Shown here piece by piece: positions 7,181-52,322 of a DNA stretch of 53,036 nt. The DNA is taken from positions 1 to 53,036 of the forward strand of contig CACLZW010000009.1 of NCBI GenBank assembly GCA_902611475.1, in the 5' to 3' direction. This DNA comes from an uncultured Alphaproteobacteria bacterium (GTDB lineage Bacteria; Pseudomonadota; Alphaproteobacteria; Rhodobacterales; Rhodobacteraceae). The notes below the pieces were generated by a model that was not told the DNA's origin, ran no database searches, and saw only the letters and a list, made by a program, of their open reading frames with translations. Each line of letters opens with the position of its first letter. Within the stretch, counting starts at the first letter, position 1. Both the position numbers and the translations under genes were made by a program.

Positions 7181-7181
7181 A

Positions 7182-36414: not shown

Positions 36415-37248
36415 TCATTTATCTGGCCTTAGATTCAAGATTATTTTCTTTGTGGCAGGTATTATCTTCTCATATACGTGAGAAAGAATTTCAATCCTAT
36501 CAAAAATAGTTGGGTTATTTAATAAGTATTCCCTCAGATTTTCTCCAAAAACCTGTCTTAATTGTGTTCCTATATTAACTTTGCAAATGGCAGTATTTTT
36601 TGCTAACCAATGAAGTTGAGTGGTCTTTATACCGGACCCGCCATGAATAACAAGTGGGCACTCTACAAATTTTTCAATTTGAGAGAGTAATTTGGTATCG
36701 ACTTCTGTTGCCTTCTCCTGTTCGAGATGAGTGTTTCCAACAGAAATTGCTAAAGCATCTACCTGCGTAGCTTCATAAAATTTTTGTGCAAGTTTGGGCT
36801 CAGTAAACTTAGATTTTATCCCTTGATCGTAACCAACAACTCCTAGCTCTGCCTCTACAGATGCTCCATAATTTTTTGCAAGCTCCACAGCTTTGCATGT
36901 CATATCAATGTTTTCGTTAAGTTCCATGTTTGACCCATCAAACATAATTGATGAAAAGCCATTATCTAGAGCTCTTTCGCACTCTTTTAAATTAGTAGAG
37001 TGGTCCAATAGAGTTACGATATTAATTGATGCATCCTCTGCAAGTTTTTTTAACATCGGCCCCATTATTTCTATAGGAGTGTTTTCGCGGCAATTTGGTC
37101 CAACTTGCAAGATAATTGGGCAGCAAATTTCTTCTGCTGCCTTTACATAATATTTTGCATCTTCCCATCCCAGTATAACTAAACCTGCAAGTGCATACCT
37201 CTTGCTTCTAGCAATATGAAGCTCTTGGCTGAGTGTAGATAAGGTCAT
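36415..37248 (-). CDS. class II fructose-bisphosphate-type aldolase
   Basis: A 277-residue zinc-dependent aldolase of the FbaA/GatY/IolJ group. Metal ligands and the catalytic Asp are visible in VTLLDHSTNL (Asp-His), SVEAELGVVG (Glu), SVGNTHLE (His; family SxGxxHG varied) and PLVIHGGSGI (His), with GTQLRQVF binding phosphate. The family includes IolJ, which splits the phosphorylated product of inositol breakdown. It overlaps the upstream IolB-like gene by 4 bases (ATGA) and is the last gene of the long minus-strand operon. Exact substrate is open because the IolC fusion already carries a DUF2090 aldolase domain. Confidence 0.85.
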   Translation of the reverse strand: MTLSTLSQELHIARSKRYALAGLVILGWEDAKYYVKAAEEICCPIILQVGPNCRENTPIEIMGPMLKKLAEDASINIVTLLDHSTNLKECERALDNGFSSIMFDGSNMELNENIDMTCKAVELAKNYGASVEAELGVVGYDQGIKSKFTEPKLAQKFYEATQVDALAISVGNTHLEQEKATEVDTKLLSQIEKFVECPLVIHGGSGIKTTQLHWLAKNTAICKVNIGTQLRQVFGENLREYLLNNPTIFDRIEILSHVYEKIIPATKKIILNLRPDK

Positions 37249-38084
37249 TTAAATTTGGCTATCATATCTTTAATGCCAGGTATAGTTTCGACTTGCCAGC
37301 TATATTCAGGTTGAAAAAATTGAACTAAAGATCTCTGAGATTTACCGGCTAAAATTGTGAAATAATACATCTTATAACCTGGAGCAACCACACAAGGATG
37401 ATACCCCTTATCAATTACAAAAGTTGATCCATCCACTATATGATGCGCATCTCCAACTTTTTTATTTTCTCCTTGCAATAATTGAAGAGCAAATCCTTCC
37501 TTAGGATCGAATCTAAAGTTGTAGACTTCATCATGGTGTGTTTCACCATCTCTATCAGTATCGTGCTTGTGGGGTGGAAACCCTGACCATCCACCTTTAC
37601 CGACAGTAAAAAGCTCAGAAACTAATAGGCGACCAACTTTTCCATTTTGTTTTTGTCCTAAGATATGTTTAATTTTTCTATGAGTTTTGGTGTCGTCAGA
37701 CCCATATTGAACTACATCCACGTCTTCTCCCATAATATAGAATGGCTGTAATTGCTCTGAATACTTGGCTCCCGCAATAAAAATTTCGGCGTGGTCACAG
37801 GCACATTTTATTTTTGCGGTTGAACCCGTTGGCACATAAACCCCCTCGGGCTCTCCGTCCCAAACGTTATTAATCCGATTACCTATCAAACGTTCGTCCA
37901 AAGAATAGACATTCACAATAATACTCCCTGTCGCAGGAACAATACAGCTCTCATACTCTTTTAATTCGTATACAAATTCTTCATCTCCATTTAAAGTAAT
38001 CCTATTGAAAAAAGCGTATGGTACTTTTGCATCGTTTATATCAATTATGGGTCTATTATCATTGTCATGGGGCGGTATGTGCAA
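37245..38084 (-). CDS. second IolB-like 5-deoxy-glucuronate isomerase homologue
   Basis: A 279-residue double-cupin of the IolB/KduI family, clearly diverged from the IolB at 39997. The metal region GFPPHKHDTDR, the DEVYNFRF strand and KGYHPCVVAPGYKMYYFTILAG keep the His/Glu ligands. It starts with TTG at 38084 behind a strong AGGAG (6-base spacing), and lies 9 bases after the kinase gene and overlaps the aldolase. It likely isomerises an aldehyde-type deoxy-uronate or related compound for the paired kinase. Substrate unknown. Confidence 0.8.
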   Translation of the reverse strand: MHIPPHDNDNRPIIDINDAKVPYAFFNRITLNGDEEFVYELKEYESCIVPATGSIIVNVYSLDERLIGNRINNVWDGEPEGVYVPTGSTAKIKCACDHAEIFIAGAKYSEQLQPFYIMGEDVDVVQYGSDDTKTHRKIKHILGQKQNGKVGRLLVSELFTVGKGGWSGFPPHKHDTDRDGETHHDEVYNFRFDPKEGFALQLLQGENKKVGDAHHIVDGSTFVIDKGYHPCVVAPGYKMYYFTILAGKSQRSLVQFFQPEYSWQVETIPGIKDMIAKFK

Positions 38085-38093
38085 TTTATACTC

Positions 38094-39065
38094 CTAATGT
38101 GTCTCGATAAATTCAATTAGCTGGTTAAGATTGGGCATTGCCGATGAGCATCCTTCTTTCGAAACGACAATAGCTGCAGACGCGTTACCTCTTTTTATAG
38201 CTGATTCTAAACTTAATCCATTTGAGAGTGAGTGAAGAATTGTACCTAAGAATGCATCACCAGCTCCGTATGGTTTCTTTGCTTTCACTTTAAACACGGT
38301 ATATGACTCCGTTTCACCATCTAAAATAATGTCACAACCATCAGCTCCTTTTTTAAATAATACTAGTTGGTTTGAATTAAAATTAGCACTGACCTTTCGT
38401 AAATCCGTTTGTTCAAACATTATTTCAAACTCTTCTCTATTGCCAACACACATATCAGCTATTTTTGCAACTCCTCGAAGTTCAGCGGATGCCAATGATA
38501 TTGAAGTCCAGGCATTTGCTCTGTAATCAACGTCGAATATAACTGGGCATTTTGCATTTTTTGATTTTTCGATAAGTAGGTTTATTGTTGATCTTGATGG
38601 TTCATCCGAAAGCGCAGTTCCAGTGATCACAATACCGGCATAATTCTCTAGATTTAAGCTATCAATATTTTGTTTATCTATCAAAAGATCAGCGGCATTA
38701 TTACGATAGATAACGACCTTTGGCTCTTCTCTTATCTCTGCTATTGCAAGTGATGTACGAGCATTATTATTTTGAGACTTGGTTACTAATGAAGTATCTA
38801 TTTTATGCTCTTCTAATTTTTTCCAAACAAAATCACCAATTTCATCATCTGAGACCACAGTTATAATTTGAGAACGACCTCCGAGTTTGGAAATAGAAAC
38901 AGCAATGTTTGCAGCAGATCCCCCCAAATCGGAGATAAATGTACCGGCTTCACTTGTTTGTTTATTGGCTGGTTTAGGGTAAAGGTCCATTCCAGCTCTT
39001 CCTACAATTACAAATTTACCCTTTGCCATTCGTTGTTTTAATTTTATGGGTAATTCGATGGTCAT
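38094..39065 (-). CDS. PfkB family carbohydrate kinase, second IolC-like
   Basis: A 323-residue ribokinase-family sugar kinase. It opens with FVIVGRAGMDLYP, has LGGSAANIAVSISKLGG and VIYRNNAADLL in the sugar-binding region, and KPYGAGDAFLGTIL with the catalytic Asp of the GAGD motif. It is IolC-like but differs from the IolC domain at 42647, so it is a divergent paralogue. An internal ATG at 39029 (MAKGKF) is an alternative start. It lies 5 bases after iolE and 9 bases before the second IolB-like gene. Confidence 0.85.
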   Translation of the reverse strand: MTIELPIKLKQRMAKGKFVIVGRAGMDLYPKPANKQTSEAGTFISDLGGSAANIAVSISKLGGRSQIITVVSDDEIGDFVWKKLEEHKIDTSLVTKSQNNNARTSLAIAEIREEPKVVIYRNNAADLLIDKQNIDSLNLENYAGIVITGTALSDEPSRSTINLLIEKSKNAKCPVIFDVDYRANAWTSISLASAELRGVAKIADMCVGNREEFEIMFEQTDLRKVSANFNSNQLVLFKKGADGCDIILDGETESYTVFKVKAKKPYGAGDAFLGTILHSLSNGLSLESAIKRGNASAAIVVSKEGCSSAMPNLNQLIEFIETH

Positions 39066-39070
39066 TAAAC

Positions 39071-39970
39071 TTAGGCGATTATCTTAAAATCATATTCTTC
39101 TAAGCAGGAAACTAAGGTATTGAAACCCTTTTTTGCGTACTCAAATGGATTGGCTTTCAGAGGATCTTGCTCTGCTTCAATCACTATCCAACCTTTGTAT
39201 CTAATGTCTTTAAGCCGTTTGATAAACTTTCGATAATCAATGCAACCATCTCCTGGCACTGTAAACACGCCATCCAATACACAGTCTAAAAAGCTATCTT
39301 TACTTTTATCCACATTCTTGAAAACGTCCTTTCTAATATCTTTTGTATGAATATGATTTATTCTATCCCCATAATTAGAAATAATTTTATCATAATCACC
39401 GTCGGCAAATAGAAGATGTCCTGTGTCTAGAAGAAGACCAACTGAGTCTCTAGTGCTATTCATTAATTGCTCGATCTCATTTTGTGTCTCTACGGCTGTA
39501 CCCATATGGTGATGAAAGGTCAATGGTACGCCTTTGTCTAAGCAATAATCGGCTAGATCACCTAAATCTTGGCCGTATTGCTTAATATCAAATTCGGATA
39601 ATCTCGGCCTCGAATTCAAGGGTTTATTCTTTTTGTTTTGAACTGTATTGAACGTTTCACCATAAACTAAAACGCTCGCACCAACTTCGGCAAATAAATT
39701 TAAAGTTCTATCTAGTTTAATTTTTTCTTCTTTTAGACTGTTATTTAGCATTGTGCCAGAATACCAACCGGAAATAAGCTTTAATTCATGCTCTTCTAAA
39801 ACTTCTTTAAGGCTAGAAGGGTTCTTTGGAAATTTTCCACCTAACTCAGTACCTGAAAATCCAGCCAATCGTGTTTCTTTTAAGCATGTTTCTAAGCTCG
39901 TATCACCTCCAAGTTCAGGTAAATCATCATTAGTCCATGAAATTGGCGACATACCAAGCTTTACCTCCAT
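39071..39970 (-). CDS. iolE: myo-inosose-2 dehydratase
   Basis: Dehydrates scyllo-inosose (2-keto-myo-inositol) to 3D-3,5/4-trihydroxycyclohexane-1,2-dione. This TIM-barrel protein of about 299 residues is recognised by GMSPISWTNDDLPELGGDTS, TELGGKFP and LTFHHHMGTAVETQNEIE, with further metal residues in LLLDTGHLLFADGD, INHIHTKDIR and IVIEAEQDP. I prefer ATG at 39970; a TTG two codons earlier (39976) is possible. It follows iolB on the same strand and precedes the second kinase. Confidence 0.93.
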   Translation of the reverse strand: MEVKLGMSPISWTNDDLPELGGDTSLETCLKETRLAGFSGTELGGKFPKNPSSLKEVLEEHELKLISGWYSGTMLNNSLKEEKIKLDRTLNLFAEVGASVLVYGETFNTVQNKKNKPLNSRPRLSEFDIKQYGQDLGDLADYCLDKGVPLTFHHHMGTAVETQNEIEQLMNSTRDSVGLLLDTGHLLFADGDYDKIISNYGDRINHIHTKDIRKDVFKNVDKSKDSFLDCVLDGVFTVPGDGCIDYRKFIKRLKDIRYKGWIVIEAEQDPLKANPFEYAKKGFNTLVSCLEEYDFKIIA

Positions 39971-39996
39971 ATACAACTCACTTTCTTTAAAACAAT

Positions 39997-40797
39997 CTAT
40001 TTATTCACTATCCAATCATGATTTGGATCATTTTTAAACTTCCAAACTCTCTTGGGACCTGCCATTACATTTAAATAATAACTTTTATACCCATGTGGGA
40101 CACCAACTGGATGATAGCCAGAAGGAACTAGTACGACACTTTTATCAGAGGGCGACATGGATTCATTAATACTCAAATCGTCCGTGTATACGCGTTGGGT
40201 TACGTATCCTTGCGAAGGGTCTATTCTATGATAGTACGTTTCTTCAAGATAGGACTCTGTTGGTAAATTGTCCTGATCATGTTTGTGAGGCGGATAGGAG
40301 GACCAGTTTCCTGATGGAGTAATAACCTCAACTACTAATAAGCTATCAGCTGGCTCAGTTTCTGGAAGTATGTTGCAAACATATCTAGTGTTGGAACCTT
40401 CCCCCCTTTTTTCTTTTTTCATTTTCTCTGGTATAATTACGCGAAATTCCTGATCCTGAGTTAAGCCGGGTGCGGTGCAATATGCAAACTCACAATCTGT
40501 AAGTGTATTTATTTCAAAGCTATGATTGGCTGGACAGTAAAACGCATAAGGTGCCTCGTTATCAAAAACTGAACTTCTGCCTTTAAAGTTCCCAACTTCT
40601 TTTCCATTTAAAAAAAAGTTTATTTCTCCAGTTAATAACACGACGCAGACCTCTCGTGAGTCACCATTTCTAGAGAACTTATTTCCTTTAAAAGCTTTAT
40701 AAACCTCTAATCCAACATATTTCCAGCCAGCACTAGAAGGAGTGATGTTATGTAATCTCATAGATTTCAAATCTGGATTAATTAGGAGCTTGCTCAC
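39997..40797 (-). CDS. iolB: 5-deoxy-glucuronate isomerase
   Basis: Converts 5-deoxy-D-glucuronate to 5-keto-2-deoxygluconate (DKG). The 266-residue double-cupin protein has the classic block WSSYPPHKHD, LEETYYHRIDPSQGY, SGYHPVGVPHGYKSYYLNVMAGP with the metal ligands, and ends HDWIVNK. It abuts iolD (1-base overlap) and is followed by iolE. This copy is closer to the canonical IolB than the copy at 37245. Confidence 0.94.
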   Translation of the reverse strand: MSKLLINPDLKSMRLHNITPSSAGWKYVGLEVYKAFKGNKFSRNGDSREVCVVLLTGEINFFLNGKEVGNFKGRSSVFDNEAPYAFYCPANHSFEINTLTDCEFAYCTAPGLTQDQEFRVIIPEKMKKEKRGEGSNTRYVCNILPETEPADSLLVVEVITPSGNWSSYPPHKHDQDNLPTESYLEETYYHRIDPSQGYVTQRVYTDDLSINESMSPSDKSVVLVPSGYHPVGVPHGYKSYYLNVMAGPKRVWKFKNDPNHDWIVNK

Positions 40798-42644
40798 TAT
40801 TTAGATCCTTTGTCTTGTATTGCTCTAGCCACTAAATACTTCTTTGAAAGATCTGACTTGCTATTATCGATGAAGGTTTCTGGAATGGCCACATCCCACC
40901 AAGCACCTCCTTCCTCAGTACTTATATTTGGATCTGTATCTATCACTATAACATTAACGCCCTTTTTTGAAATTGCGCTTTTAACCTCTCTCTCCAATTG
41001 AGTTATGTCGGAAACATGCGTGGCTTCTGCTCCCATAGATTTTGCATGAGAAACGTAATCAATTTCTATCTGATTCTCGAATTTAGAGTCTGAAAACAGA
41101 TTGTTAAACTCGGTCCCCCCAGAAGCTTTTTGTAAGCGATTAATACAACCATAGCCTCTATTATTTGTAAGGATGAGAGTCATTGAAACGCCCATCATTG
41201 CGGCGGTAGCGAGTTCCGAATTCATCATTAGGTAAGAGCCATCGCCAGCAAAAATTACATTTGGTCTATTAGGTGCAGCGAGATTTACTCCAATACCAGC
41301 TGAAACCTCATATCCCATACAAGAATACCCATATTCCATATGATACGTATCTTGATCTAAAACTCTCCAGAGTTTATGTAGTTCTCCTGGCATTGACCCT
41401 GCCGCGCCTATTACGATTGTGTTTTCTGGCACACTTCGGTTTACTGCTCCGATTACTTGACTGTCGGCAGGTAGACTATTCATTAAACTAGTAGAAGTTA
41501 CTTTGTCTACGTCTTTTGTCCAATTTGACTTTGCTCGGGAATAATGCGTGATATAGTCTGCACTAACCTTATAATTTATGCTTAGCGCTCTCAGCAATTG
41601 GAGTGTCTCCTTAGCATCCCCCAGAATAGGTATGGACTTGTGTTTAGTTAGATCATGTGCCTGAACATTTATGGAATATACCGGAGCCTTTATTAGTCCG
41701 TTGGAGCCTGTAGTAAAATCTTGCAACCGACTTCCTACAGAAATAACGAGATCTGCACCTGATATAATTGCATTGCCTGAACTAGAACCTGTCACTCCGA
41801 TAGATCCAAGGTTCTGCTCATCTTTTTCTACTAAGACTGATTTTCCAGCTTGTGTTGCCACTAGTGGTATTTTAGTTTGATCTAAAAATTTCTTTAGTTC
41901 GTTTTGCGCATCGCTATATTTTACTCCTCCACCAGCGATTACTACAGGTTTTTTTGACTTTTTTAGTGAGTTAGCCAACCTCTCTATCTCTCTTCGGTCT
42001 GGTTGAATTCTTCTGACATTCCAGTGAACAATTTCAAAAAAAGATTCTGGATAATTATAGGCTTCGGCTTGTACATCTTGACAAAACGCAAGAGTAACAG
42101 GGCCAGCCATAGCTGGGTCAGTAAGAATAGACATGGCTTTTGGTAATGCATTGAGTAATTGTTCAGGCCTAGTTATTCGATCAAAATATCTGCTGACCGG
42201 TCTGAAGCAATCATTAGCAGATACAGTTCCGTCTTCAAAATCTTCAACCTGTTGAAGTACTGGGTCAGGGCGTCTGTCAGCAAAGATATCACCTGGTAGT
42301 AAAAGAATTGGTAGCCTATTAACGTGAGCTAATGCCGCTGCTGTTACTAGGTTGGTTGCTCCAGGACCAATAGATGATGTGACGGCCATAAACCTTCTCC
42401 TTCGCATCTCTTTTGTATATGCTAATGCCGCATGGGCCATGCCTTGCTCGTTATGCCCTCTATAAGTCGGAAGTTCGGATTTATGCTTTTCTAAAGCCTC
42501 ACCTATGCCAGCAACGTTACCGTGACCAAATATTCCCCACACACCTTTGAAAGCCATTTCAAACGATCCATTAAATTGTTCAATCTTCTGGGCAATCATC
42601 CACTTTACCAGAGCCTGCGCTGCAGTTAATTTAACTGTTTTCAT
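40797..42644 (-). CDS. iolD: 3D-(3,5/4)-trihydroxycyclohexane-1,2-dione hydrolase
   Basis: ThDP-dependent ring-opening hydrolase giving 5-deoxy-glucuronate. About 615 residues with three ThDP-enzyme domains. The N-terminal PYR domain has the catalytic Glu in HNEQGMAHAALAYT; the central domain is Rossmann-like; the C-terminal PP domain binds Mg-ThDP through GDGSYLMMNSELATAAMMG to NNRGYG. The frame opens at 42665, but relatives begin at MKTVKLTAAQALV (ATG 42644), just clear of the iolC stop; that start also has GAGG upstream. Confidence 0.94.
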   Translation of the reverse strand: MKTVKLTAAQALVKWMIAQKIEQFNGSFEMAFKGVWGIFGHGNVAGIGEALEKHKSELPTYRGHNEQGMAHAALAYTKEMRRRRFMAVTSSIGPGATNLVTAAALAHVNRLPILLLPGDIFADRRPDPVLQQVEDFEDGTVSANDCFRPVSRYFDRITRPEQLLNALPKAMSILTDPAMAGPVTLAFCQDVQAEAYNYPESFFEIVHWNVRRIQPDRREIERLANSLKKSKKPVVIAGGGVKYSDAQNELKKFLDQTKIPLVATQAGKSVLVEKDEQNLGSIGVTGSSSGNAIISGADLVISVGSRLQDFTTGSNGLIKAPVYSINVQAHDLTKHKSIPILGDAKETLQLLRALSINYKVSADYITHYSRAKSNWTKDVDKVTSTSLMNSLPADSQVIGAVNRSVPENTIVIGAAGSMPGELHKLWRVLDQDTYHMEYGYSCMGYEVSAGIGVNLAAPNRPNVIFAGDGSYLMMNSELATAAMMGVSMTLILTNNRGYGCINRLQKASGGTEFNNLFSDSKFENQIEIDYVSHAKSMGAEATHVSDITQLEREVKSAISKKGVNVIVIDTDPNISTEEGGAWWDVAIPETFIDNSKSDLSKKYLVARAIQDKGSK

Positions 42645-42646
42645 TT

Positions 42647-44557
42647 TTAATTTTTCCTCTTCCATAACTTTATAAGCGTAGTAAATTTATTAAACATCTC
42701 ATCCTTTGCTTGTTGATTAGTTATTTTATTTCCAAACCACTTTCTGGCTGTTTCAAAAAATATCGATCGTCCTACTGCAAACCCCTTTACGTGTTTATAA
42801 TTTTTACATAGATCAAAAACTGAAGCCAACTTATCTGAAGGCGCATCCATGCCCAAAACGATTATTCCTTGGGCATAGGGATCAAACTGCTGTACGATAT
42901 CATTGGCTTTCGACCAAAACTTGACATTTTCAATAGGCTCTAGTTTCCACCAATCGGGATAAATATTCTCTTCATACAACTTCTGCATAAGAGATAGGAT
43001 CTGCTCAGGAGAGCTAGCTTTGTCATTTCTTTTTGTAATAATCTCCAATAATAGTTCATGGTTAGTAAGCCTACACGCTTGCGCTAATTGACTTAAAAGT
43101 TTTACTTGATGTTCATAGATGTCTTTTGGATCATCATTTCTTAAGGGTGCCAAGACTTTCACACAATGATTAACTGGCCAGTTTGCCAGTCGTGATCCTA
43201 TATCAGGCTCCTCAGTTAATTCTAAAGGAAATACACCTGCCTTTTCAATTGGTCTACCAATCCATATGTCATGATCAGACGCGGCATGCAAAGAGCTTTC
43301 TGCATATTCTTCATCTAAAAGGATACCTACATTTTCTTGCTCAGTTTTTTGCGCCTCCAAACATGCCTCTAATGCCATTGATTTGAAAACAGCGATATCC
43401 TCTTTTTCTTTTTTTTCATTTTCCTCTGCTAGCTTTTTAAATTGCACTCTGTGATCTATTGCCAAAGTAAAAAGGTTATCAAAACTTTTTCTTCGATTTG
43501 TACTCCAATGCAGTTGTTCAAGAAATGTATCTTGTCTTAAAGAAAAGTGCTGGCTTCCATTTTTAAGGTAGTGTTCTAACTCTATTTTAGATGGATAAGC
43601 TGGTGCACATCCATGTCGAGAGACTGCTAAAGCACCACATGCATTGGCATACTTCGCGCATAATTCCAACGACTGGTCATTTAACCAACCATATAAAAAA
43701 CCTGCCATAAAGCCATCACCAGCACCCAGGACATTAAATATCTCAATTTTATTAACTGTTACAGAAATACCTGAATCCCAGTTAATTATAGCATCGGGGA
43801 AAACGGTGCACCCCATGGCGCCCCTTTTACAGACAATTATAGCTTGTGTTAGTTCACGACAGACTCGAAGCGCTTTTAATGTGTCTTTAGTTCCTCCTGC
43901 TATATGCCATTCTTCTTCCGTTCCCACAATAAGATCACAGTGGCTTATGATTTTTTGAACATCACTTGTTACGACCTTACTTTCTTCGAACCTGCTCTCA
44001 CCATCACCGTGACCGCCTAGGGACCAGAGGTTCGGACGATAATCAATATCAAACCCGACAAGCACATTATTATTTTTTGCATAGTTAATTGCTTGGAACG
44101 AAGCTTCTGATACTTGCCTCGAGCTAAAGTGGGTACCGGTTACAACAACACATTTTGAGCGTTTAATAAAATCTGGATCAATTTCATTCTTTGTGAGGCC
44201 CATATCAGCACAATTCTCACGGTAAAATAGTAGAGGGAATTGTTCCTTATCGCGAATTCCTAAAATAGCGAGAGCGGACAAACGTTCCTTATCAATAATA
44301 ATTCCCTCTGTGTTTACACCCTCTCTAGTTAATTGCTCAGTAATAAATCGCCCGAAATGCTCATCACCTACTCTTGTAATGACTGCAGATTTCAAGCCTA
44401 ATCTTGATGCTCCGATGCTAATGTTAGTAGGACTACCCCCAATGTATTTTTGGAACGACGTCATGTCTTCCAGTCGTCCTCCAACTTGCCCTCCATATAA
44501 ATCTACTGAAGATCGTCCAATTGTTATTACATCAAGATCATTTTTTTGATTAACCAT
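42647..44557 (-). CDS. iolC: IolC-DUF2090 fusion: 5-dehydro-2-deoxygluconokinase with aldolase-like domain
   Basis: A 636-residue two-domain protein. Residues 1 to about 330 are a PfkB kinase (DVITIGRSSVDLYGGQVGGR, GGSPTNISIGASRLG, FYRENCADMGL, NVLGAGDGFMAGFLYG) that phosphorylates DKG at C6. Residues from about 350 to the end are the DUF2090 domain, a TIM-barrel aldolase-like module (LFTLAIDHRVQFKKLAEE; ILLDEEYAESSLHAA; GIIVLGMDAPSDKL; AVGRSIFF). In fused forms it is generally predicted to split DKG-phosphate into DHAP and malonate semialdehyde. It starts 51 bases after the ABC ATPase gene. Confidence 0.92.
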   Translation of the reverse strand: MVNQKNDLDVITIGRSSVDLYGGQVGGRLEDMTSFQKYIGGSPTNISIGASRLGLKSAVITRVGDEHFGRFITEQLTREGVNTEGIIIDKERLSALAILGIRDKEQFPLLFYRENCADMGLTKNEIDPDFIKRSKCVVVTGTHFSSRQVSEASFQAINYAKNNNVLVGFDIDYRPNLWSLGGHGDGESRFEESKVVTSDVQKIISHCDLIVGTEEEWHIAGGTKDTLKALRVCRELTQAIIVCKRGAMGCTVFPDAIINWDSGISVTVNKIEIFNVLGAGDGFMAGFLYGWLNDQSLELCAKYANACGALAVSRHGCAPAYPSKIELEHYLKNGSQHFSLRQDTFLEQLHWSTNRRKSFDNLFTLAIDHRVQFKKLAEENEKKEKEDIAVFKSMALEACLEAQKTEQENVGILLDEEYAESSLHAASDHDIWIGRPIEKAGVFPLELTEEPDIGSRLANWPVNHCVKVLAPLRNDDPKDIYEHQVKLLSQLAQACRLTNHELLLEIITKRNDKASSPEQILSLMQKLYEENIYPDWWKLEPIENVKFWSKANDIVQQFDPYAQGIIVLGMDAPSDKLASVFDLCKNYKHVKGFAVGRSIFFETARKWFGNKITNQQAKDEMFNKFTTLIKLWKRKN

Positions 44558-44608: not shown

Positions 44609-45373
44609 CTATCTTCTAGAGAATTCTGTTTCAAGTTTCTCTAACTCTGCACCACCTGCCATCAAGGGTCTAAGGTTATTCATATCAATTTCGTCTCTTG
44701 ATCCCTCGGCCAAGACTTTTCCTCTGTTCAGAAAAGCAAAACGATCTCCCAAAAGCTTAGCGTGCATATCATTATGAGTTATGAATATTATGGCTATGTC
44801 ACCTAACTCTTTTACTTTTTTTATAGTTCTTAAAACTTCTAACTGCTGTTTTTGTCCGAGGGCCGAGGTTGGTTCATCCAGAATAAGAACATTGGCTCCA
44901 AAATAAATAGCTCTAGCGATCGCTAATGTCTGTCTTTGACCACCTGACATAGTTCCTATCGGTTGTGTTGGGTCCGCTACATCAATACCCAGTTTCGCCA
45001 TTTCCTTTTTTGTGATTGTATTCATCAGAGGCATATTTAAAAATAAGCCTTTGGTAATCTCTCTACCTAGAAAAAAATTTCTAGTCACACTCATCAAAGG
45101 TTGTAACGCCAAGTCCTGATACACTGTACCGATACCAGCAGACACAGCTTGTCTTGGTGACTTAAAATTCACTGGCTCACCGCTCAGCAGTATTTCGCCT
45201 TTACTAGGCATGTGGACCCCAGATAATAGTTTTATTAGTGTTGATTTACCTGCACCATTATCACCTAATAAAGCCGTTATCTCACCCTTAAAAACCTTAA
45301 ATGATATATCCTTCAGCGCTATTATGTTACCAAAAAACTTTGATACACCCCTAAATTCAATTGATGGGATCAT
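44609..45373 (-). CDS. sugar ABC transporter ATP-binding protein, single domain (FrcA-like)
   Basis: A 254-residue ABC ATPase with one nucleotide-binding domain. Walker A is GDNGAGKSTL, the Q-loop is TVYQDLALQP, the signature is TMSGGQRQTLAIARAI and Walker B is VLILDEPTSALG. This compact form accompanies FrcBCA-type carbohydrate importers. It follows the permease by 7 bases. Placed at the head of the iol genes, it most likely powers import of inositol or a related polyol. Confidence 0.92.
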   Translation of the reverse strand: MIPSIEFRGVSKFFGNIIALKDISFKVFKGEITALLGDNGAGKSTLIKLLSGVHMPSKGEILLSGEPVNFKSPRQAVSAGIGTVYQDLALQPLMSVTRNFFLGREITKGLFLNMPLMNTITKKEMAKLGIDVADPTQPIGTMSGGQRQTLAIARAIYFGANVLILDEPTSALGQKQQLEVLRTIKKVKELGDIAIIFITHNDMHAKLLGDRFAFLNRGKVLAEGSRDEIDMNNLRPLMAGGAELEKLETEFSRR

Positions 45374-45380
45374 AGTCTCT

Positions 45381-46439
45381 TTAGCCTTTCACTATCCTGT
45401 CTCTCAAAAATTGGTTTAAAAGAGCAGATCCTAAAATTAGCATTCCTAGCATTACCCTAAAAAGGTTATTGTCGATAAAAGGTACAAAGTTTATTCCTCG
45501 GCTTGCGATTGCAAAAATTAATGCCCCAAGAACTGCTCCAACGACGGAGCCGTAACCGCCGGTTAATGCACAACCGCCGATAACCGCCGCTGCAATTGCA
45601 TGTAGTTCGCGAAAATCTCCTGCTTTGGGATCTGATGCACCAGATGTCATTACGGTTAAAATACCTAAGAGACAGGCAAGAGAGGTCGAGATCATAAATA
45701 AGCTAATTTTCACCCTTGCTACTGGAACACCAACAGCTCTTGCAGCCACCGGGTCACCTCCAGACGCATATATCCAATTTCCATATGGTGTTCGATTGGT
45801 AATGAAAGCAACTATGAATACAAGAATGATAAAGTAATAAACTTCGGCATCGAAGGGAACCCCAAAAGCCTTATCGAATGCGAAAATGTTATCAATAAGT
45901 GTAGGATCCTCTCCACCTCCCGGGGGTGGTTTTAGATTTGCCTTCACAGATAATCTAGATTGATTGAAAAACGTTTGGCTAAGAAATACTGCAAAACCTC
46001 TACTAGCAAACCAAAATGCCAGAGTTACAATAAAGCTGGGAAGTCCCGTTCTGACAACAATTACTCCAATGACAAATCCTAAAAAAGCTAGCTCTATAAA
46101 GGTTAAAATAATCGCCAACTCAATGGGCACTCCAAATAAAAGAAAAATGGCAAAGCTATGTCCGGCTAAAGCAATATTTGCTCCCATGCTGAGATCAAAC
46201 TCTCCTGCTATCATTAAAAGAGAGGCACCGATAGCTAAGATGCCCACAAACGCTGCAAGCTCAACCCATGCCTGGATTCCAATTGGATTTAGCCACATTG
46301 CTCCAAAGGTGCCACTGATTGAGGTAAGCGTCATAAAAGTAATGACAATTATTATTAAACCAAAAACAGACCCTAACTCTGGTCTAGATATAGATCTTCT
46401 GATTAATCCGATATCTCGTATGCGTTCATCAGATGCCAT
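45381..46439 (-). CDS. sugar ABC transporter permease
   Basis: A 352-residue membrane protein of the RbsC/FrcC-type permease family with about nine hydrophobic segments. The conserved EFDLSMGANIALAGHSFAIF and GDPVAARAVGVPVARVKISLFMISTSLACLLGI blocks mark the family, as does AIAAAVIGGCALTGGYGSVVGAVLGAL. It starts 74 bases after the binding-protein gene behind a G-rich site; a perfect hairpin separates the two. Same operon as the ATPase that follows. Confidence 0.93.
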   Translation of the reverse strand: MASDERIRDIGLIRRSISRPELGSVFGLIIIVITFMTLTSISGTFGAMWLNPIGIQAWVELAAFVGILAIGASLLMIAGEFDLSMGANIALAGHSFAIFLLFGVPIELAIILTFIELAFLGFVIGVIVVRTGLPSFIVTLAFWFASRGFAVFLSQTFFNQSRLSVKANLKPPPGGGEDPTLIDNIFAFDKAFGVPFDAEVYYFIILVFIVAFITNRTPYGNWIYASGGDPVAARAVGVPVARVKISLFMISTSLACLLGILTVMTSGASDPKAGDFRELHAIAAAVIGGCALTGGYGSVVGAVLGALIFAIASRGINFVPFIDNNLFRVMLGMLILGSALLNQFLRDRIVKG

Positions 46440-46457
46440 TTGCCCCCCTAAAATAAA

Positions 46458-46484
46458 TCTGGCAAATCGCTATGATTTGCCAGA
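46458..46484 (-). terminator. intercistronic hairpin between binding-protein and permease genes
   Basis: A perfect 11-bp stem, TCTGGCAAATC / GATTTGCCAGA, with a 5-base loop, lies in the 74-base gap. On the minus strand it is followed by TTTATTTTAG. It probably acts as an attenuator or a 3' end protector that leaves more mRNA for the binding protein than for the permease, as in many importer operons. Confidence 0.65.
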
Positions 46485-46513
46485 CCGTTATAAATAAGAA
46501 AGAGGTATACTTC

Positions 46514-47440
46514 TTATCTTTCTTTTCCTGCTAGTTTCTTCACTAATTCAACATTTCCCTTTGTCACAAAACCTGGACCTGAGTTAATTGAATTACCTGG
46601 AAGAGTACCATTTCTATGATTTAGATGTAGTACTACCACTGGTACATAGCCTTGCAAAAATTGCTGCTGGTCAATGGCGTAGTTAACTGTACCGTCAATT
46701 ATTCCATCAACAATTGCTGGTCCGAGGTCAAAACAACCTAAAACTACTTTCCCAGCTTTACCCATTTCCTTAAGAGCAGCTATAGTTGGATCACAACCAG
46801 TAGGACCAACGGCCATTATAGCTCCTGTATCTGGATTGGAAGACATATGTGCGATGACGGTGTTTTTGATATCATCGAAATCTGATGAAACCTCAACCAT
46901 ATTAAGCTTCTCACCCATACCGTCAGCAAAACCTTGGCATCTATCTTTAAGAGCTGTATTCATTGGCTCGTGGTTAAAGCAAACTGAGTTCTTTCCACCC
47001 AACCCTTTGCTTTTTTCGCCGCCACCTAGACCAGCTTCATATTCAGGTTGTCCAACGTGCATTACAGCACCTAAGCTTTTTGAAACGCCGGCTCCAGAAT
47101 TCATTGATATAACTGGAATTCCTGCTGCAACAGCTGCCTTAATTGGTCCTCCTAAAATATCTGGCGCGGGTATTGACACGACAATACCATCTGGCTTCTG
47201 AGCAATAGCAGCTTCAATCAAAGATGCCATTTCGTTTAAGTCTCCAGTTGGTGGGTTTCTGTATTGAACATCTGCACCGGTGTCTGCCTTTGCAGCCTCA
47301 ACTCCATTTCTTACAACTCCCCAAAAGGCGTCTGTATCAGATCCGTGAGTTACCACGATTATGTTTGCCTTATGATCTGCACCAAAAGAAACACCAGTAG
47401 ATAGAACTAGGGCTATCAATGTAACTAATATTTTTTTCAT
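46514..47440 (-). CDS. sugar ABC transporter periplasmic substrate-binding protein
   Basis: A 308-residue periplasmic-binding protein of the ribose/galactose (type I) fold. A signal peptide (MKKILVTLIALVLSTGVSFGADH) leads into ANIIVVTHGSDTDAFWGVVRNGVEAAK, then PDGIVVSIPAPDILGGPIKAAVAAGIPVISMNSG. The cluster suggests an inositol or polyol ligand, but that is inference. GGAGG precedes the ATG. It is the first gene of the operon and has its own promoter at 47511-47539. It ends 30 bases upstream of the hairpin at 46458-46484. Confidence 0.93.
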   Translation of the reverse strand: MKKILVTLIALVLSTGVSFGADHKANIIVVTHGSDTDAFWGVVRNGVEAAKADTGADVQYRNPPTGDLNEMASLIEAAIAQKPDGIVVSIPAPDILGGPIKAAVAAGIPVISMNSGAGVSKSLGAVMHVGQPEYEAGLGGGEKSKGLGGKNSVCFNHEPMNTALKDRCQGFADGMGEKLNMVEVSSDFDDIKNTVIAHMSSNPDTGAIMAVGPTGCDPTIAALKEMGKAGKVVLGCFDLGPAIVDGIIDGTVNYAIDQQQFLQGYVPVVVLHLNHRNGTLPGNSINSGPGFVTKGNVELVKKLAGKER

Positions 47441-47647: not shown

Positions 47648-48772
47648 ATGAAAGGTATTGGGGTAGGAGTTATCGGTACGGGGTTTATGGGGAAAGCCCA
47701 TTCAGTTGCCTACAGTGGATCTGCTTCAGTTTTTGGAACAGGGTTGAGGCCAAGACTAGAGATAGTTTGTGATTTAAGCCCCAAGAGAGCCAGCCAAAGA
47801 GCAACAGACCTTGGCTTCTCACGGTATACAAGTAGCTGGCAAGACGTCGTCAACGATCCAGAAGTAAAACTAGTTTCTGTTTGCACACCGAACGACACGC
47901 ATGCGGAAATTGCAATTGCAGCTTTAAAGTTGGGAAAAAGTGTTTGGTGTGAAAAACCTATGTCTAGTAATCTCCCCGATAGCAAGAAAATGCTTGCAGC
48001 ATCTAAGAAAAGCAAAGGCAAAACAATTATTGGTTACAACTATACAAAAAATCCAGCAGTATTACATGCACGAGAGTTAATAGAAACTGGTGTCATCGGC
48101 GACGTTGCTGGCTTTTTCTGTCGTTATGATGTTGATAATGAGGCCGATAAAAAAAGACCATGGTCTTGGCGTATGTCGAGAAAAGCGTCTGGTACTGGTG
48201 CAAATGGAGATATATTGAGTCACGTTATAAGCGTGGCGCACTTTTTAGTTGGATCGACAATATCTAAAGTAGTAGGGGATATAAATATTGTACACCCAAA
48301 AAGAAAGGATCCAACTAATAGAAAACAAACTAAGACCGTTGATAATGATGACATGATCTCTGCTCTTATTCATTTCCAAAATGGGGTACATGGGCATATT
48401 GGTGCCAGTCGCGTTACTTGGGGTAAAAAATGTGGACTTACATGGGAGTTACATGGAACCGAGGGCACCATAATATTTGATCAGGAAAGACTAAACGAGA
48501 TCAAACTATTTACACGACAAAAAAAGAAAAGCACCGATGGCTTTAGGACAATTTTAACGGGTCCTGATCATCCTTTTTATAAATCCTTTCTGCCTAATGG
48601 AGGTCACAGTTTAGGATTTATGGATGTCAAGATGTGTGAATTACAGATGCTCCTGTTCGCAATAGAGCATGATACTGAGACTTGGCCCAATTTTGAATCA
48701 GGATATGAAATAGAAAAAGTAATGGACGCTGTAGATAGATCAGCACTTAGTGGAAAGTGGATTAAGATTTAG
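47648..48772 (+). CDS. Gfo/Idh/MocA family oxidoreductase (inositol- or sugar-type dehydrogenase)
   Basis: A 374-residue NAD(P)-dependent dehydrogenase. The Rossmann fold is marked by VGVIGTGFMGKAHSVAY, the nicotinamide side by VCTPNDTHAEIAIAAL, and the catalytic Lys by CEKPMSSNLP (Lys103). The C-terminal alpha/beta domain includes WSWRMSRKASGTGANGDILSHVISVAHFL. It resembles the longer dehydrogenases of inositol clusters (scyllo-inositol or keto-inositol acting), but the substrate cannot be read. It is divergent from the ABC operon and its end overlaps the convergent iolG by 4 bases. An AGGAGA site precedes the ATG. Confidence 0.85.
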   Translation: MKGIGVGVIGTGFMGKAHSVAYSGSASVFGTGLRPRLEIVCDLSPKRASQRATDLGFSRYTSSWQDVVNDPEVKLVSVCTPNDTHAEIAIAALKLGKSVWCEKPMSSNLPDSKKMLAASKKSKGKTIIGYNYTKNPAVLHARELIETGVIGDVAGFFCRYDVDNEADKKRPWSWRMSRKASGTGANGDILSHVISVAHFLVGSTISKVVGDINIVHPKRKDPTNRKQTKTVDNDDMISALIHFQNGVHGHIGASRVTWGKKCGLTWELHGTEGTIIFDQERLNEIKLFTRQKKKSTDGFRTILTGPDHPFYKSFLPNGGHSLGFMDVKMCELQMLLFAIEHDTETWPNFESGYEIEKVMDAVDRSALSGKWIKI

Positions 48773-49773
48773 TTAACATAGCTCAGATAAACTGTTCTAC
48801 CTGTTTTAGCAGATTTAAGAGCATTTTCGGCTAAGTACAGTGCGTAATAACCGTCAGAGCCATCAGGTTTAGGCATTGACCGTTTTTTTATACAGTCAAC
48901 AAAGTAGTCGATTTGATTTTTGTAAGCGTCTATGTACCTTGTCATAAAAAAGTGGTGCAACCTATCTTTAGTTGTTCCAGCGTCCTTTGCTAGTTCTATC
49001 TCCGAGAGAGTGGGATTGTTAACTTTTAAACTTCCTTTAGACCCATGAACCTCGACTCTTTGATCATAACCATATGTCGCCCTTCGTGAGTTAATTATTG
49101 AAATCTGCTTTCCAGAAATGGTTCTCATTAAAATAGTGGCAGTATCGTAATCACCGGCTTGCTCAATTTTTTTACTTACAAAATTGGATCCTAAAGCGGT
49201 GATAGAATGTATTTTCTCATCTGCTAAGAAGACAGCCATGTCGAGATCATGGATAGCCATATCTTTAAATATACCGCCAGATTGTTTAATATATTCAATT
49301 GTTGGCGGATTTGGGTCTCTTGATGTTATGGTGATTTGCTCAATAACCCCAATCTCTTTTTTGGTTAAATGTGCTTTCAATTTTGCGAAATGAGGGTCAA
49401 ATCTTCTATTAAACCCGAGCATTACTTGAGATTTGGATTCGCTAACTAGTTGAACGAGTTTCTTAACTTTTCTTAAATTTAGATCAAGAGGTTTTTCGCA
49501 GAACACCGCTTTTTTAGTATAAAGAAATCTTTTTATAAGATCGACATGTGTATCAGTGGGAGTGCAGATAAGAATACCCTTAATTTGATCATTATTAGTA
49601 ATGTCATCAAGTGACATTTGTTGACACGAATACCTTTTTTGAAGTCTATTAATTTCATTATTTATTGGATCGTGGATAGCAGCAAGCTCAGCGTTGGAGT
49701 TTGCTTGAATTGTATCAGCGTGAACTTTACCAATTCTGCCCATTCCTAAAATTGCAAATTTTATTCGCTTCAT
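48769..49773 (-). CDS. iolG: myo-inositol 2-dehydrogenase
   Basis: Oxidises myo-inositol to scyllo-inosose, the entry step to the pathway. The 334-residue Gfo/Idh/MocA protein has the Rossmann motif AILGMGRIGKVHAD, Lys94 in CEKPLDLNL, and Asp171-Met-Ala-Ile-His175-Asp in DMAIHDLDMAVFL, the catalytic set of inositol dehydrogenases. The block TSRDPNPPTIEYIKQSGGIF is diagnostic of IolG. It lies 15 bases after the PhyH gene on the same strand. Confidence 0.93.
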   Translation of the reverse strand: MKRIKFAILGMGRIGKVHADTIQANSNAELAAIHDPINNEINRLQKRYSCQQMSLDDITNNDQIKGILICTPTDTHVDLIKRFLYTKKAVFCEKPLDLNLRKVKKLVQLVSESKSQVMLGFNRRFDPHFAKLKAHLTKKEIGVIEQITITSRDPNPPTIEYIKQSGGIFKDMAIHDLDMAVFLADEKIHSITALGSNFVSKKIEQAGDYDTATILMRTISGKQISIINSRRATYGYDQRVEVHGSKGSLKVNNPTLSEIELAKDAGTTKDRLHHFFMTRYIDAYKNQIDYFVDCIKKRSMPKPDGSDGYYALYLAENALKSAKTGRTVYLSYVN

Positions 49774-49788
49774 ATTATCAAAATTTCT

Positions 49789-50994
49789 TTACGAAGATTG
49801 TCGAATATCAAGTAAATTCAATTCTTCAAAGACAAAAGCTGGTTCTTTCTCAGCTTTTAATGACTCAATGATAATCATAGCTTGGGTTTTTGGCGCCATT
49901 CCGTCTATGGGAGGATCCAGATCTAAATTCGTTGGAAATGAATAGCCCTCCGAACTTGCCCCCACAACATTTTCGATTAGCCTGAAAGGCATCTTTTTTT
50001 TTATAACTAATTCTAATAACTGAGGGTATAGTGTCTTAGCCATAATTTTCCTATCAATGGTTTCCATTGCTCTTCCAAATGCTGATGATATTTGGAGTAG
50101 ATTGGCCATTCTTTTTACTGATTTAGTTTTATTATTTCCTGCTCCATGCATAACAGCAGGATTAAAGAAAACAGCATCTCCCTTTGTCATTTCAATCTGA
50201 ACAGAATTTTTATCGAAGAATTTTTGATATTTCTCTTTAGAAAAGTCAATATAGCCCCTTTTATATAATTGGGAGTACGGTAGTAAGAGCGTCGGCCCAC
50301 TTTCAATACTCATGTCGCAGTGCGCAATTGCGCCTTGAAGGGTAAGGTAAGGTGACATTGCATGTACATGTAGAGGCCAACTGGCAGATTGTTCACCTGA
50401 CATAAATCCTAAGTGATAGTCTCTATGAGCTTTTTGAGCTTCTCCACCAGGATTCACTCTATTGACTTGTGCCGTTACTTGGTAATTGGGGCCAAGCCAA
50501 GCTTCTGAAGCTAACGCGATGGCTTCTGAGCAATAGTAATCTATAAAGTTTTGTGGGTCCTTCATACAGTGCTTTTGGAGTGAATTCCATATTCTATCGT
50601 TCGCTCCTGGTTTGGCAAAGTGATCGCCTATATTCCCATTTAATTTTTCAGAGTTTATTATTTCTTCAAAATTAGTCGTTGCTATGTCGATCACAGAAGT
50701 ATTTTCGATAGCATTTGAAATCGCAATTATTCCTGCACCGCTTTCTAATACGCTAGACCACTCAGTTAGTAATTCCTGTTTTCTCTCAAATAAATTTGCG
50801 CAGTCTCTAACTAACTGCCCAGAATAAATTGGAATATTATTTTTAATTTCTATAGCATGCGGTGCATCAGCTTTTATTGTTTCTCTGCTAACAAGTTTTT
50901 CAAAAGTTTGAAAATTTTCATGTTCCAAATTGGAAGGAATTTTTTTTTCTAAATCAGTAACTCCATCTTTCATGTCTAAATCTCCAGGTGCCAA
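49789..50994 (-). CDS. phytanoyl-CoA dioxygenase (PhyH) family protein
   Basis: A 401-residue Fe(II)/2-oxoglutarate-dependent oxygenase. The facial triad is visible as His190-Arg-Asp192 and His283 (PAVMHGAGNN), with a likely 2-oxoglutarate-binding Arg near 295. The 180-residue N-terminal extension is longer than in small PhyH enzymes. Its place directly before iolG suggests a role in preparing a sugar or cyclitol derivative, such as oxidative O-demethylation or hydroxylation, but this is speculation. A second ATG (M8) is possible. Confidence 0.85.
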   Translation of the reverse strand: MAPGDLDMKDGVTDLEKKIPSNLEHENFQTFEKLVSRETIKADAPHAIEIKNNIPIYSGQLVRDCANLFERKQELLTEWSSVLESGAGIIAISNAIENTSVIDIATTNFEEIINSEKLNGNIGDHFAKPGANDRIWNSLQKHCMKDPQNFIDYYCSEAIALASEAWLGPNYQVTAQVNRVNPGGEAQKAHRDYHLGFMSGEQSASWPLHVHAMSPYLTLQGAIAHCDMSIESGPTLLLPYSQLYKRGYIDFSKEKYQKFFDKNSVQIEMTKGDAVFFNPAVMHGAGNNKTKSVKRMANLLQISSAFGRAMETIDRKIMAKTLYPQLLELVIKKKMPFRLIENVVGASSEGYSFPTNLDLDPPIDGMAPKTQAMIIIESLKAEKEPAFVFEELNLLDIRQSS

Positions 50995-51092: not shown

Positions 51093-52322
51093 TCAAATCG
51101 CTCCGGATTCCCTAAGTACCTCTATTTGTTCATTATTCAATCCAAGCATTTCTTTTAAAATAGCTATATTATCTTCTCCAAGCTTTGGTGCTCTTCTAAT
51201 TTCGGTTTCGGCCATATTCGAAAGCTTTATTGGATTGCCAAAGACTTTAACAACCTCGTTTAGTACAGGCATATCAAGAATCATTTTGCGGTCTATTAAT
51301 TGAGGATCAGAAACAACTTCACCAATTCCCTTGATTGGGCTTAACGGAACTTTATCGGAGAGCATAATTTCGAGCTCGGCCTTTGTATATCTAGAAAACC
51401 ATCCATTAATAAGAGGCTTTATGCGTCTGTCATACACTTCCTTATTGAAACGCTTGTGCATTGTATCAATTTCAGGATCTGACGCCAAATCATCACAATT
51501 AAAAACTTTGAGCGTTTCTCGCCACTGTTTATCATTATAGCCCCCAAAAAATACGAACCCATCCTTACAGGAAAATTGTTCATATGGTCGGACAAAAGCG
51601 TGATCATTTCCTGTAGGGGTGGCCTCTACACCATCGACAGAATAACGAAGAAGCGCGCTTTCGGTTAAGCATAGAGTGGAGTCAACCTGAGCTACATCAA
51701 CTAATTGCCCTATTCCTGTTTTTTCTGCCTCTCTAAGCGCCACAACTGTCCCTATTGTACCGAAAAAACAGGCTGCCAAATCTCCAATGATAGTGCCCAC
51801 CCTTACCGGCGGCCTGTCAGGATAACCATTCATAGACCAAAGACCACTTTCAGCCTGTCCAGTATTATCAAAACTTGGTCTTGACGACTTTGGTCCCGTC
51901 TGACCAAAACCACTTATTGAAGTGTATACCAGTGCGGGGTTTTCTTTTTTAAGATCTTCATACCCCAACCCTAGACCATTCATTGCTCCGGGTCGAAAAT
52001 TCTCAATCAAAATATCTGCTTTTTTCACCAATTGCTTTAAAGTTTTTTTACCTTCTGCATTTTTTAGATTGAGGGTCATACCTAACTTGTTCCTATTATA
52101 CTGTGCAAAGAAGGCACTTTCCTTATCCGTTTTTGTAAAGGGAGGAAAGTTTCTTGTGTAATCAGGGTCTCCGGGATTCTCAATTTTTATAACTGTAGCT
52201 CCCAAATCTGCAAGAATCATGGCGCTGTAGGGGCCTGCGACTACTCGGGTTATATCGAGTACGACCACACCCTCTAGAGGTAGATTATTATTTTCAGACT
52301 TTTTGTTTTTGGTTGAAGTCAT
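51093..52322 (-). CDS. CaiB/BaiF family CoA-transferase
   Basis: A class III CoA-transferase, 409 residues, interlocked-dimer family. It begins with LPLEGVVVLDITRVVAGPYSAMILADLGATVIKIENP and has LIENFRPGAMNGLGLGYEDLK. The catalytic Asp is Asp152 in SRPSFDNTGQAESG. It moves CoA between carboxylic acids. It lies 29 bases after the sugar ABC ATPase and 98 bases before the PhyH gene on the same strand. The acid substrate is unknown; its link to inositol use is unclear. Confidence 0.92.
   Translation of the reverse strand: MTSTKNKKSENNNLPLEGVVVLDITRVVAGPYSAMILADLGATVIKIENPGDPDYTRNFPPFTKTDKESAFFAQYNRNKLGMTLNLKNAEGKKTLKQLVKKADILIENFRPGAMNGLGLGYEDLKKENPALVYTSISGFGQTGPKSSRPSFDNTGQAESGLWSMNGYPDRPPVRVGTIIGDLAACFFGTIGTVVALREAEKTGIGQLVDVAQVDSTLCLTESALLRYSVDGVEATPTGNDHAFVRPYEQFSCKDGFVFFGGYNDKQWRETLKVFNCDDLASDPEIDTMHKRFNKEVYDRRIKPLINGWFSRYTKAELEIMLSDKVPLSPIKGIGEVVSDPQLIDRKMILDMPVLNEVVKVFGNPIKLSNMAETEIRRAPKLGEDNIAILKEMLGLNNEQIEVLRESGAI

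Follow-up and report, generated by a model that had tools for sequence, protein, structure and literature searches.

Why would an inositol operon that already encodes an isomerase, a kinase and an aldolase carry a further gene for each of these steps? The question is raised by a 53,036-nucleotide stretch from an uncultured member of the Rhodobacteraceae (contig CACLZW010000009.1; this whole stretch is hereafter the window), whose own assembly is 62% complete and 1.59 Mb in size. On its minus strand, a canonical iol operon closes at its 3′ end (36415-39065) with adjacent genes for a PfkB-family kinase, an IolB-family isomerase (IolB2) and a class II aldolase, which we refer to together as the triad. 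The analysis confirms that the triad is a real, conserved second set and not a chance arrangement. The reading that we favour, tentatively and with slightly less than even confidence, is that it forms the lower half of a second, widespread inositol-catabolic set for a different inositol-derived intermediate; any particular second substrate is a candidate only, which we infer from sequence.

Results

Read along the minus strand, the operon encodes a periplasmic binding protein, a permease, an ATPase, an IolC-DUF2090 fusion, IolD, a canonical IolB (IolB1), IolE and then the kinase, IolB2 and the class II aldolase, with gaps of 5, 9 and -4 bases from IolE onward as calculated from open reading frame (ORF) coordinates. 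An earlier reading made from the letters alone (the sequence-only reading) had described three coupled genes lying downstream of iolB and an IolC-DUF2090 fusion in the same operon, and the ORFs, the spacings and the Pfam and NCBIfam scores bear out both statements. The members of the two sets, together with a dehydrogenase that accompanies them, are as follows.

36415..37248, minus strand: class II (zinc) aldolase, triad type, 277 amino acids (PF01116, 226.7 bits)
37245..38084, minus strand: IolB2, divergent IolB-family isomerase, 279 amino acids (PF04962, 242.9 bits)
38094..39065, minus strand: PfkB-family kinase, stand-alone and IolC-like (the triad kinase), 323 amino acids (PF00294, 171.2 bits)
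39071..39976, minus strand: IolE, inosose dehydratase (TIGR04379, 396.7 bits; cut-off 290)
39997..40797, minus strand: IolB1, canonical IolB (TIGR04378, 324.5 bits; cut-off 205)
40797..42665, minus strand: IolD, ring-opening hydrolase (TIGR04377, 833.8 bits; cut-off 715)
42647..44557, minus strand: IolC-DUF2090 fusion, kinase and aldolase of the canonical branch (NF047869, 662.2 bits; cut-off 600)
47648..48772, plus strand: Gfo/Idh/MocA dehydrogenase of the LgdA type, GfoC5 (nearest solved chain 5YA8, 325.6 bits)

The NCBIfam cut-offs are passed by IolC-DUF2090, IolD, IolB1 and IolE and missed by the triad kinase and IolB2, and no aldolase equivalog passes. Specifically, IolB2 belongs to the KduI/IolB fold and scores 166.5 bits against TIGR04378, below the equivalog cut-off of 205, as does its ortholog in Ruegeria TM1040 (154.2 bits). 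In an alignment of 34 IolB2 and 23 IolB1 rows, H172, H174, E186 and H229 are identical throughout; by analogy with KduI and the cupins, we take these to be the metal ligands (HxH, E, H). The two groups differ at 16 positions that are each at least 90% uniform within either group, and the canonical YYHR (22 of 23 rows) is replaced by YxFR in all 34 IolB2 rows (YNFR in 21, YQFR in 12 and YYFR in one). In a quick tree of 63 rows with long branches present, IolB2 and two Rhizobium-like rows fall outside the canonical IolB clade with support of 96, and IolB2 alone forms a branch with support of 82; the branches of a Thermus iol set are too long for placement in the trees. IolB1 and IolB2 of the window are 32% identical over residues 44-266. 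On this identity and on the trees, recent tandem duplication was considered and rejected for both IolB and IolC, so that IolB2 is no recent copy.

Other IolB-like proteins lie around this family. Two of them (L139 9932 and L176 1019), dropped from the IolB alignment, represent in the IolB tree a third and very distant type outside both IolB1 and IolB2. Others, 41-46% identical to IolB2 (11929-12762 in locus L058 and 4492-5325 in L061), are perhaps uronate isomerases. The Rhizobium IolB-like protein adjoins genes for an oligopeptide-type ATP-binding cassette (ABC) transporter, a glycosyl hydrolase and a mandelate racemase, and the Phyllobacterium one adjoins ABC and mannonate dehydratase genes.

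The kinase and the aldolase differ in how clearly they stand apart. The window's kinase scores 288.9 bits against TIGR04382 and so misses the cut-off of 300, and its orthologs straddle that value (310.5 bits in TM1040 and 291-337 in 12 others). Triad kinases separate from the kinases of IolC-DUF2090 fusions with support of 100/100; their split from ordinary stand-alone IolC is supported by 43/17 only. The IolC of Ligilactobacillus lies inside the triad-kinase clade in a quick tree and outside it, at that same 43/17, in a more careful tree that left out long-branch kinase rows and others. In the aldolase, the motifs LLDHS, VEAELG, GNTH and VIHGGSG, presumably the zinc and catalytic motifs, align with those of solved aldolases, and 30 of 31 triad-labelled aldolases form one clade (support 99) apart from five references that did not include Bacillus subtilis IolJ; the Flavivirga protein falls outside that clade. 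The sequence-only reading had the triad as a divergent second set and proposed its phylogeny against IolB and IolC as a check. This description holds for IolB2, which lies outside the canonical clade, and for the aldolase, which has its own branch; the kinase is set apart from the IolC-DUF2090 kinases, with its split from stand-alone IolC supported at 43/17.

The set is well kept within the window's genus. An IolB2 match is present in 13 of 22 genus genomes, the window's own included (12 full-length and one partial), and the 12 proteins other than the window's show 91-97% identity. The order IolC-DUF2090, IolD, IolB1, IolE, kinase, IolB2, aldolase is retained in all 11 genus stretches that were fetched, and the dehydrogenase and IolG are also seen in nine of them, the remaining two ending short of these genes. 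Median ratios of nonsynonymous to synonymous substitution rates (dN/dS) against the window are 0.22 for the aldolase, 0.18 for IolB2, 0.17 for the kinase and 0.22 for IolB1 (11 genomes each), and 0.04 for the dehydrogenase (nine genomes). IolB1 and IolB2 are thus both under purifying selection and, given the low dN/dS of both sets, neither looks decayed.

The strongest functional evidence in the analysis comes from co-occurrence with IolD across the family. Among 198 family genomes, 107 have some match and 74, with the window, have an ortholog; the orthologs are 58-66% identical to the window, and the other matches listed are 25-33% identical. An IolD above the cut-off is found in 70 of the 74 triad genomes versus 31 of the 124 family genomes without a triad ortholog. 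The four exceptions comprise two genomes with partial IolD matches of 584-589 bits (G118 and G139) and two with assemblies 71% and 73% complete (G166 and G147). The sequence-only reading had expected triads travelling without iolD and iolE in other genomes, and the opposite was found; this pattern implies that the triad works after an IolD-type ring opening, in a route of the inositol type. In the window's own, 62% complete genome, the IolD at 40797-42665 is the only one above the cut-off, and a search with IolE2, the IolE-like protein of the second regulon described below, returned IolE (39071-39976) as its sole match. IolD and IolE are each probably common to both branches.

The dehydrogenase at 47648-48772 lies upstream of the operon and is divergent from it. 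Compared with 5YA8, a scyllo-inositol dehydrogenase (LgdA), it is identical at 164 of 369 aligned positions and retains LgdA K106, Y135, Y163, R178, D191, H195 and H318. Five of these, Lys106, Asp191, His195, Arg178 and His318, are described in the passages available of PMC5969746 as features of the LgdA subfamily; the corresponding K103, D188, H192, R175 and H320 of the window enzyme are kept in all 71 aligned sequences, a set that left out locus L045 and included four of the 11 genus loci. The position of LgdA E165, a residue that hydrogen-bonds inositols according to the same passages, is V162 in the window enzyme and carries Val in 14 of the 71 sequences and Glu in 57. The 14 comprise the window, four genus loci and nine loci of a minimal type in which an LgdA-like dehydrogenase accompanies the triad; LgdA-type relatives lie just upstream of the triad in L138, L139, L141, L143-L145, L147, L155 and L167. 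Given this neighbourhood in other lineages, the dehydrogenase should be counted with the triad as part of the finding.

A scan of named genomes returned at least 582 stretches that encode relatives, of which the best 80 were taken for neighbourhood analysis. In 69 of these 80, IolB2 has a kinase and an aldolase on its own strand, no more than two genes away; the other 11 include short contigs, and mechanical ORF calling in GC-rich loci hides some genes. The IolB2-type isomerase occurs in marine Alpha- and Gammaproteobacteria and in a few assemblies of Bacteroidota, Spirochaetota and Thermodesulfobacteriota; a scan of viral contigs found no relative. Two architectures predominate: a LacI regulon in many Alphaproteobacteria, and the minimal module of dehydrogenase and triad. 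The latter is found in Oceanospirillaceae and other gammaproteobacterial assemblies (L138, L141, L143, L144 and L147, and L145 with no kinase seen), in Desulfofustis (L139), in ‘Ca. Thioglobus’ (L155, with L167) and in the window's genus. In each of the four minimal-module genomes tested (G000, G232, G233 and G234), one IolD above the cut-off, both IolBs and DUF2090 are present; the module there comes on top of a canonical set and shares its IolD, which speaks for one upper path with two lower branches. The gene content of L155 (IolB1, IolC-DUF2090, IolD, PhyH, IolE, dehydrogenase, kinase, IolB2, aldolase) is much as in the window. Several Vibrio and Photobacterium loci carry IolE, IolD, a Gfo dehydrogenase, kinase, IolB2 and aldolase, and looser versions occur in Flavivirga and one Spirochaetes assembly.

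Named relatives on plasmid records include Ruegeria TM1040, Marivivens, Paracoccus fistulariae, Rhizobium WL3 and others. In TM1040, WL3 and P. fistulariae the triad lies inside a complete second regulon of ABC transporter, LacI, two Gfo dehydrogenases, a triose-phosphate isomerase (TIM)-barrel protein, IolD, kinase, IolB2 and aldolase, with IolG in two of the three. Marivivens has LacI, two Gfo genes, a TIM-barrel gene and the triad, no second IolD, and a canonical iol set alongside. The TM1040 TIM-barrel protein scores 174 bits against the IolE model and misses its cut-off of 290, and the second-regulon IolE-like proteins group together with support of 91. These proteins, which we call IolE2 (6845-7738 in locus L055, and relatives), are probably a second dehydratase family.

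The remaining features around the operon are these.

44609..45373, minus strand: sugar ABC transporter ATPase (PF00005, 118.5 bits)
45381..46439, minus strand: sugar ABC transporter permease (PF02653, 140.7 bits)
46514..47440, minus strand: periplasmic binding protein, nearest to the rhizopine type (NF052284, 296.9 bits; cut-off of 420 missed)
48769..49773, minus strand: IolG, inositol 2-dehydrogenase (TIGR04380, 383.3 bits; cut-off 355)
49789-50994: PhyH-type dioxygenase, adjoining IolG
51093-52322: class III coenzyme A (CoA)-transferase, at the window edge
52352-52987: sugar ABC ATPase, partial, at the window edge

Beyond the divergent dehydrogenase, then, come IolG, the PhyH dioxygenase and the CoA-transferase. 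The dioxygenase is perhaps an O-demethylase for methyl-inositols; homologs occur in nine of the 80 relative loci, lying between IolD and IolE in L155 and L167. The CoA-transferase and the sugar ABC ATPase are kept beside the iol genes in the genus, the latter being 500 amino acids long in L073, L076, L077 and L078. A 13-pair hairpin with a T-rich tail at 46456-46486, between the binding-protein and permease genes, possibly sets an expression ratio. A promoter and terminator scan of the window was no richer than shuffled sequence (27 versus 33.3 and 7 versus 8.4) and is uninformative on the operon.

Discussion

The gene content allows a route to be proposed in which one upper path would feed two lower branches. 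The dehydrogenase at 47648-48772 would make an inosose unlike scyllo-inosose in stereochemistry or substitution, and the shared IolE and IolD would dehydrate it and open the ring to yield a 5-deoxyhexuronate other than 5-deoxy-D-glucuronate. IolB2 would turn this compound into a ketose, the PfkB kinase would phosphorylate the free CH2OH of that ketose, and the zinc aldolase would cleave the product to dihydroxyacetone phosphate (DHAP) and malonate semialdehyde, which are the products of the canonical branch too. The common theme across the loci is a dehydrogenase of other specificity combined with an isomerase, a kinase and an aldolase of their own, IolE and IolD being either shared or present in duplicate. 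It is possible, although we lean against it, that the route is a parallel pathway of different regiochemistry, in which the LgdA-type enzyme would oxidise a cyclitol, be it myo-inositol or a different one, at a ring carbon that is not C2. The resulting isomer would then pass through the shared IolE and IolD, and the lower branch of IolB2, kinase and zinc aldolase would handle a stereoisomeric 5-deoxyhexuronate. In the passages available, LgdA is described as reducing L-epi-2-inosose and is proposed to oxidise myo-inositol to that compound (PMC5969746).

Several observations weigh against a substrate of its own for the triad. Scyllo-inositol, the substrate that LgdA itself prefers according to the same passages (PMC5969746), yields the inosose of the canonical pathway, and the two sets are mixed in a number of genomes. 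For IolE and DUF2090, all 20 family genomes with IolB2 only, 34 of the 54 with both IolBs and 15 of the 33 with IolB1 only were examined; a search of the kinase complement covered 14 genomes, and further searches covered 24, 18 and 18. Canonical IolE is present in 15 of 15 and DUF2090 in 14 of 15 IolB1-only genomes, and in 27 and 24 (DUF2090 above the cut-off), respectively, of the 34 two-set genomes. Among the 20 IolB2-only genomes each is above the cut-off in just one, and all 20 have an IolE-like match of 162-185 bits (cut-off 290), which is the best match to the IolE model in 19; genomes of this kind suggest that IolB2 can be the sole isomerase. Four genomes (G043, G053, G082 and G190) have IolB1 and canonical IolE without DUF2090; in G043, G082 and G190 no IolC-like kinase except the triad one scores above 132 bits, and G053 adds to its triad kinase a partial IolC-like kinase of 196 bits. 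A missing kinase is weak evidence, because G051, although it has IolD, IolE and IolB1, lacks both DUF2090 and any IolC scoring above 129 bits. Conversely, G120, G220, G222 and G227 have IolB2 and DUF2090 and no IolB1. Among 17 outside genomes and the window, both IolBs occur in 14 of 18, and IolB2 without IolB1 in G219, G220, G222 and G227, DUF2090 being present in the last three; a single IolD passes the cut-off in 16 of 18, G218 having three and G221 two. Such exchanged parts suggest, with limited weight, that the same ketose arises in both branches, and mixing of this kind makes a clean split between two substrates less likely.

Since several genomes mix parts of both sets, it is a live and quite possible rival, if on balance a doubtful one, that IolB2, the stand-alone kinase and the aldolase simply perform the canonical steps from 5-deoxyglucuronate to DHAP and malonate semialdehyde; the set would have arrived in one piece and been retained for its dosage, its separate regulation or its differing cofactor needs. 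The exchanges in both directions fit this well, as do the TM1040 kinase, which exceeds the IolC cut-off (310.5 versus 300), and the 20 IolB2-only genomes, where the second set alone, with its IolE-like protein, looks like a whole pathway. Simple redundancy fits less well with two isomerases kept side by side under purifying selection in all 11 fetched genus stretches, with the 16 group-specific differences between them, and with a travelling dehydrogenase that has an altered substrate-contact residue. The proposal of the sequence-only reading, a second substrate rather than redundancy, is thus favoured by the separate isomerase and aldolase branches, by selection on both IolBs and by a dehydrogenase of another type, but the part swaps fit isofunctional enzymes equally.

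The mixing of sets also keeps alive a special form of the second-substrate reading, which we think unlikely, in which IolB2 would take the C2 epimer of 5-deoxyglucuronate. That epimer would arise from an inosose whose hydroxyl adjacent to the ketone is inverted, such as a chiro-type inositol would give. Aldoses that are epimeric at C2 yield one ketose, so the product would be the ordinary 2-deoxy-5-keto-D-gluconate (DKG), and the kinase and aldolase would be interchangeable with IolC-DUF2090. This explains why IolB is the clearly divergent step and why the kinase and aldolase seem exchangeable, but it leaves unexplained why, in the window and in 24 of the 34 two-set genomes examined, IolC-DUF2090 is accompanied by another kinase and aldolase. 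Far less probable is that the triad degrades a sugar acid unrelated to inositol, of the hexuronate, 4-deoxyuronate or sulfosugar type, which would enter at the isomerase independently of IolE and IolD. The Rhizobium and Phyllobacterium IolB-like proteins (41-46% identical), with their glycosyl hydrolase and oligopeptide-type ABC or mannonate dehydratase neighbours, point that way, as does the resemblance of an isomerase-kinase-aldolase logic to sulfo-EMP2, a sulfoglycolytic Embden-Meyerhof-Parnas pathway (PMC9594981). However, the IolD co-occurrence test, in which all but four triad genomes have IolD above the cut-off and those four are partial matches or incomplete, speaks against any sugar acid that would bypass IolD, and such an entry point is disfavoured. 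Sulfo-EMP2, as described in the passages available, uses SqvD, whose metal site was modelled on FucI, together with a kinase of the PF00365 family.

If the second set does serve another cyclitol, then what marine bacteria can do with inositols is currently misinterpreted. Annotated plasmid records label the triad proteins 5-deoxy-glucuronate isomerase and fructose-bisphosphate aldolase, and the set is common (at least 582 stretches in one genome collection, and 74 of 198 family genomes). In that case the IolB2 VQYGSDDTKTHRKIKH stretch with its YxFR site, and Val at the LgdA E165 position, would serve as gene markers. No description of the triad set was found in the literature searched, most subscription papers lying outside its reach, and the available passages of PMC9430895 and PMC2597717 make no statement on a second IolB. 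According to those of PMC9430895, each genome assembly was represented by a single cluster in a published survey of inositol gene clusters, so that second sets would not have stood out.

It is useful, finally, to compare the set with known systems, of which it is a variant, seemingly undescribed, rather than a new kind. Relative to the canonical pathway (IolG-IolE-IolD-IolB-IolC-aldolase), for which DHAP and malonate semialdehyde are the expected products, the families are the same, and so, judging by gene content, is the order of chemistry. In contrast, the triad isomerase lies on a separate branch, the kinase and class II aldolase are separate proteins rather than an IolC-DUF2090 fusion, an extra LgdA-type dehydrogenase accompanies them, and the roseobacter second set also has its own IolE-like protein, IolD, LacI and ABC transporter. 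IolB2 is only 26% identical to the Salmonella IolB-like protein STM4420 (2QJV). The window dehydrogenase keeps the seven listed residues of LgdA of Paracoccus laeviglucosivorans (5YA8), but in it and the minimal-module enzymes, which are linked to an iol operon with the triad, E165 is replaced by Val. With sulfo-EMP2 (SqvD-SqiK-SqiA), as set out in the passages available of PMC9594981, the triad shares the succession of isomerase, kinase and class II (PF01116) aldolase giving DHAP; that pathway uses another isomerase and another kinase family (PF00365), with no role for IolD as described, and identity of the triad with it is rejected on the difference in isomerase and kinase families.

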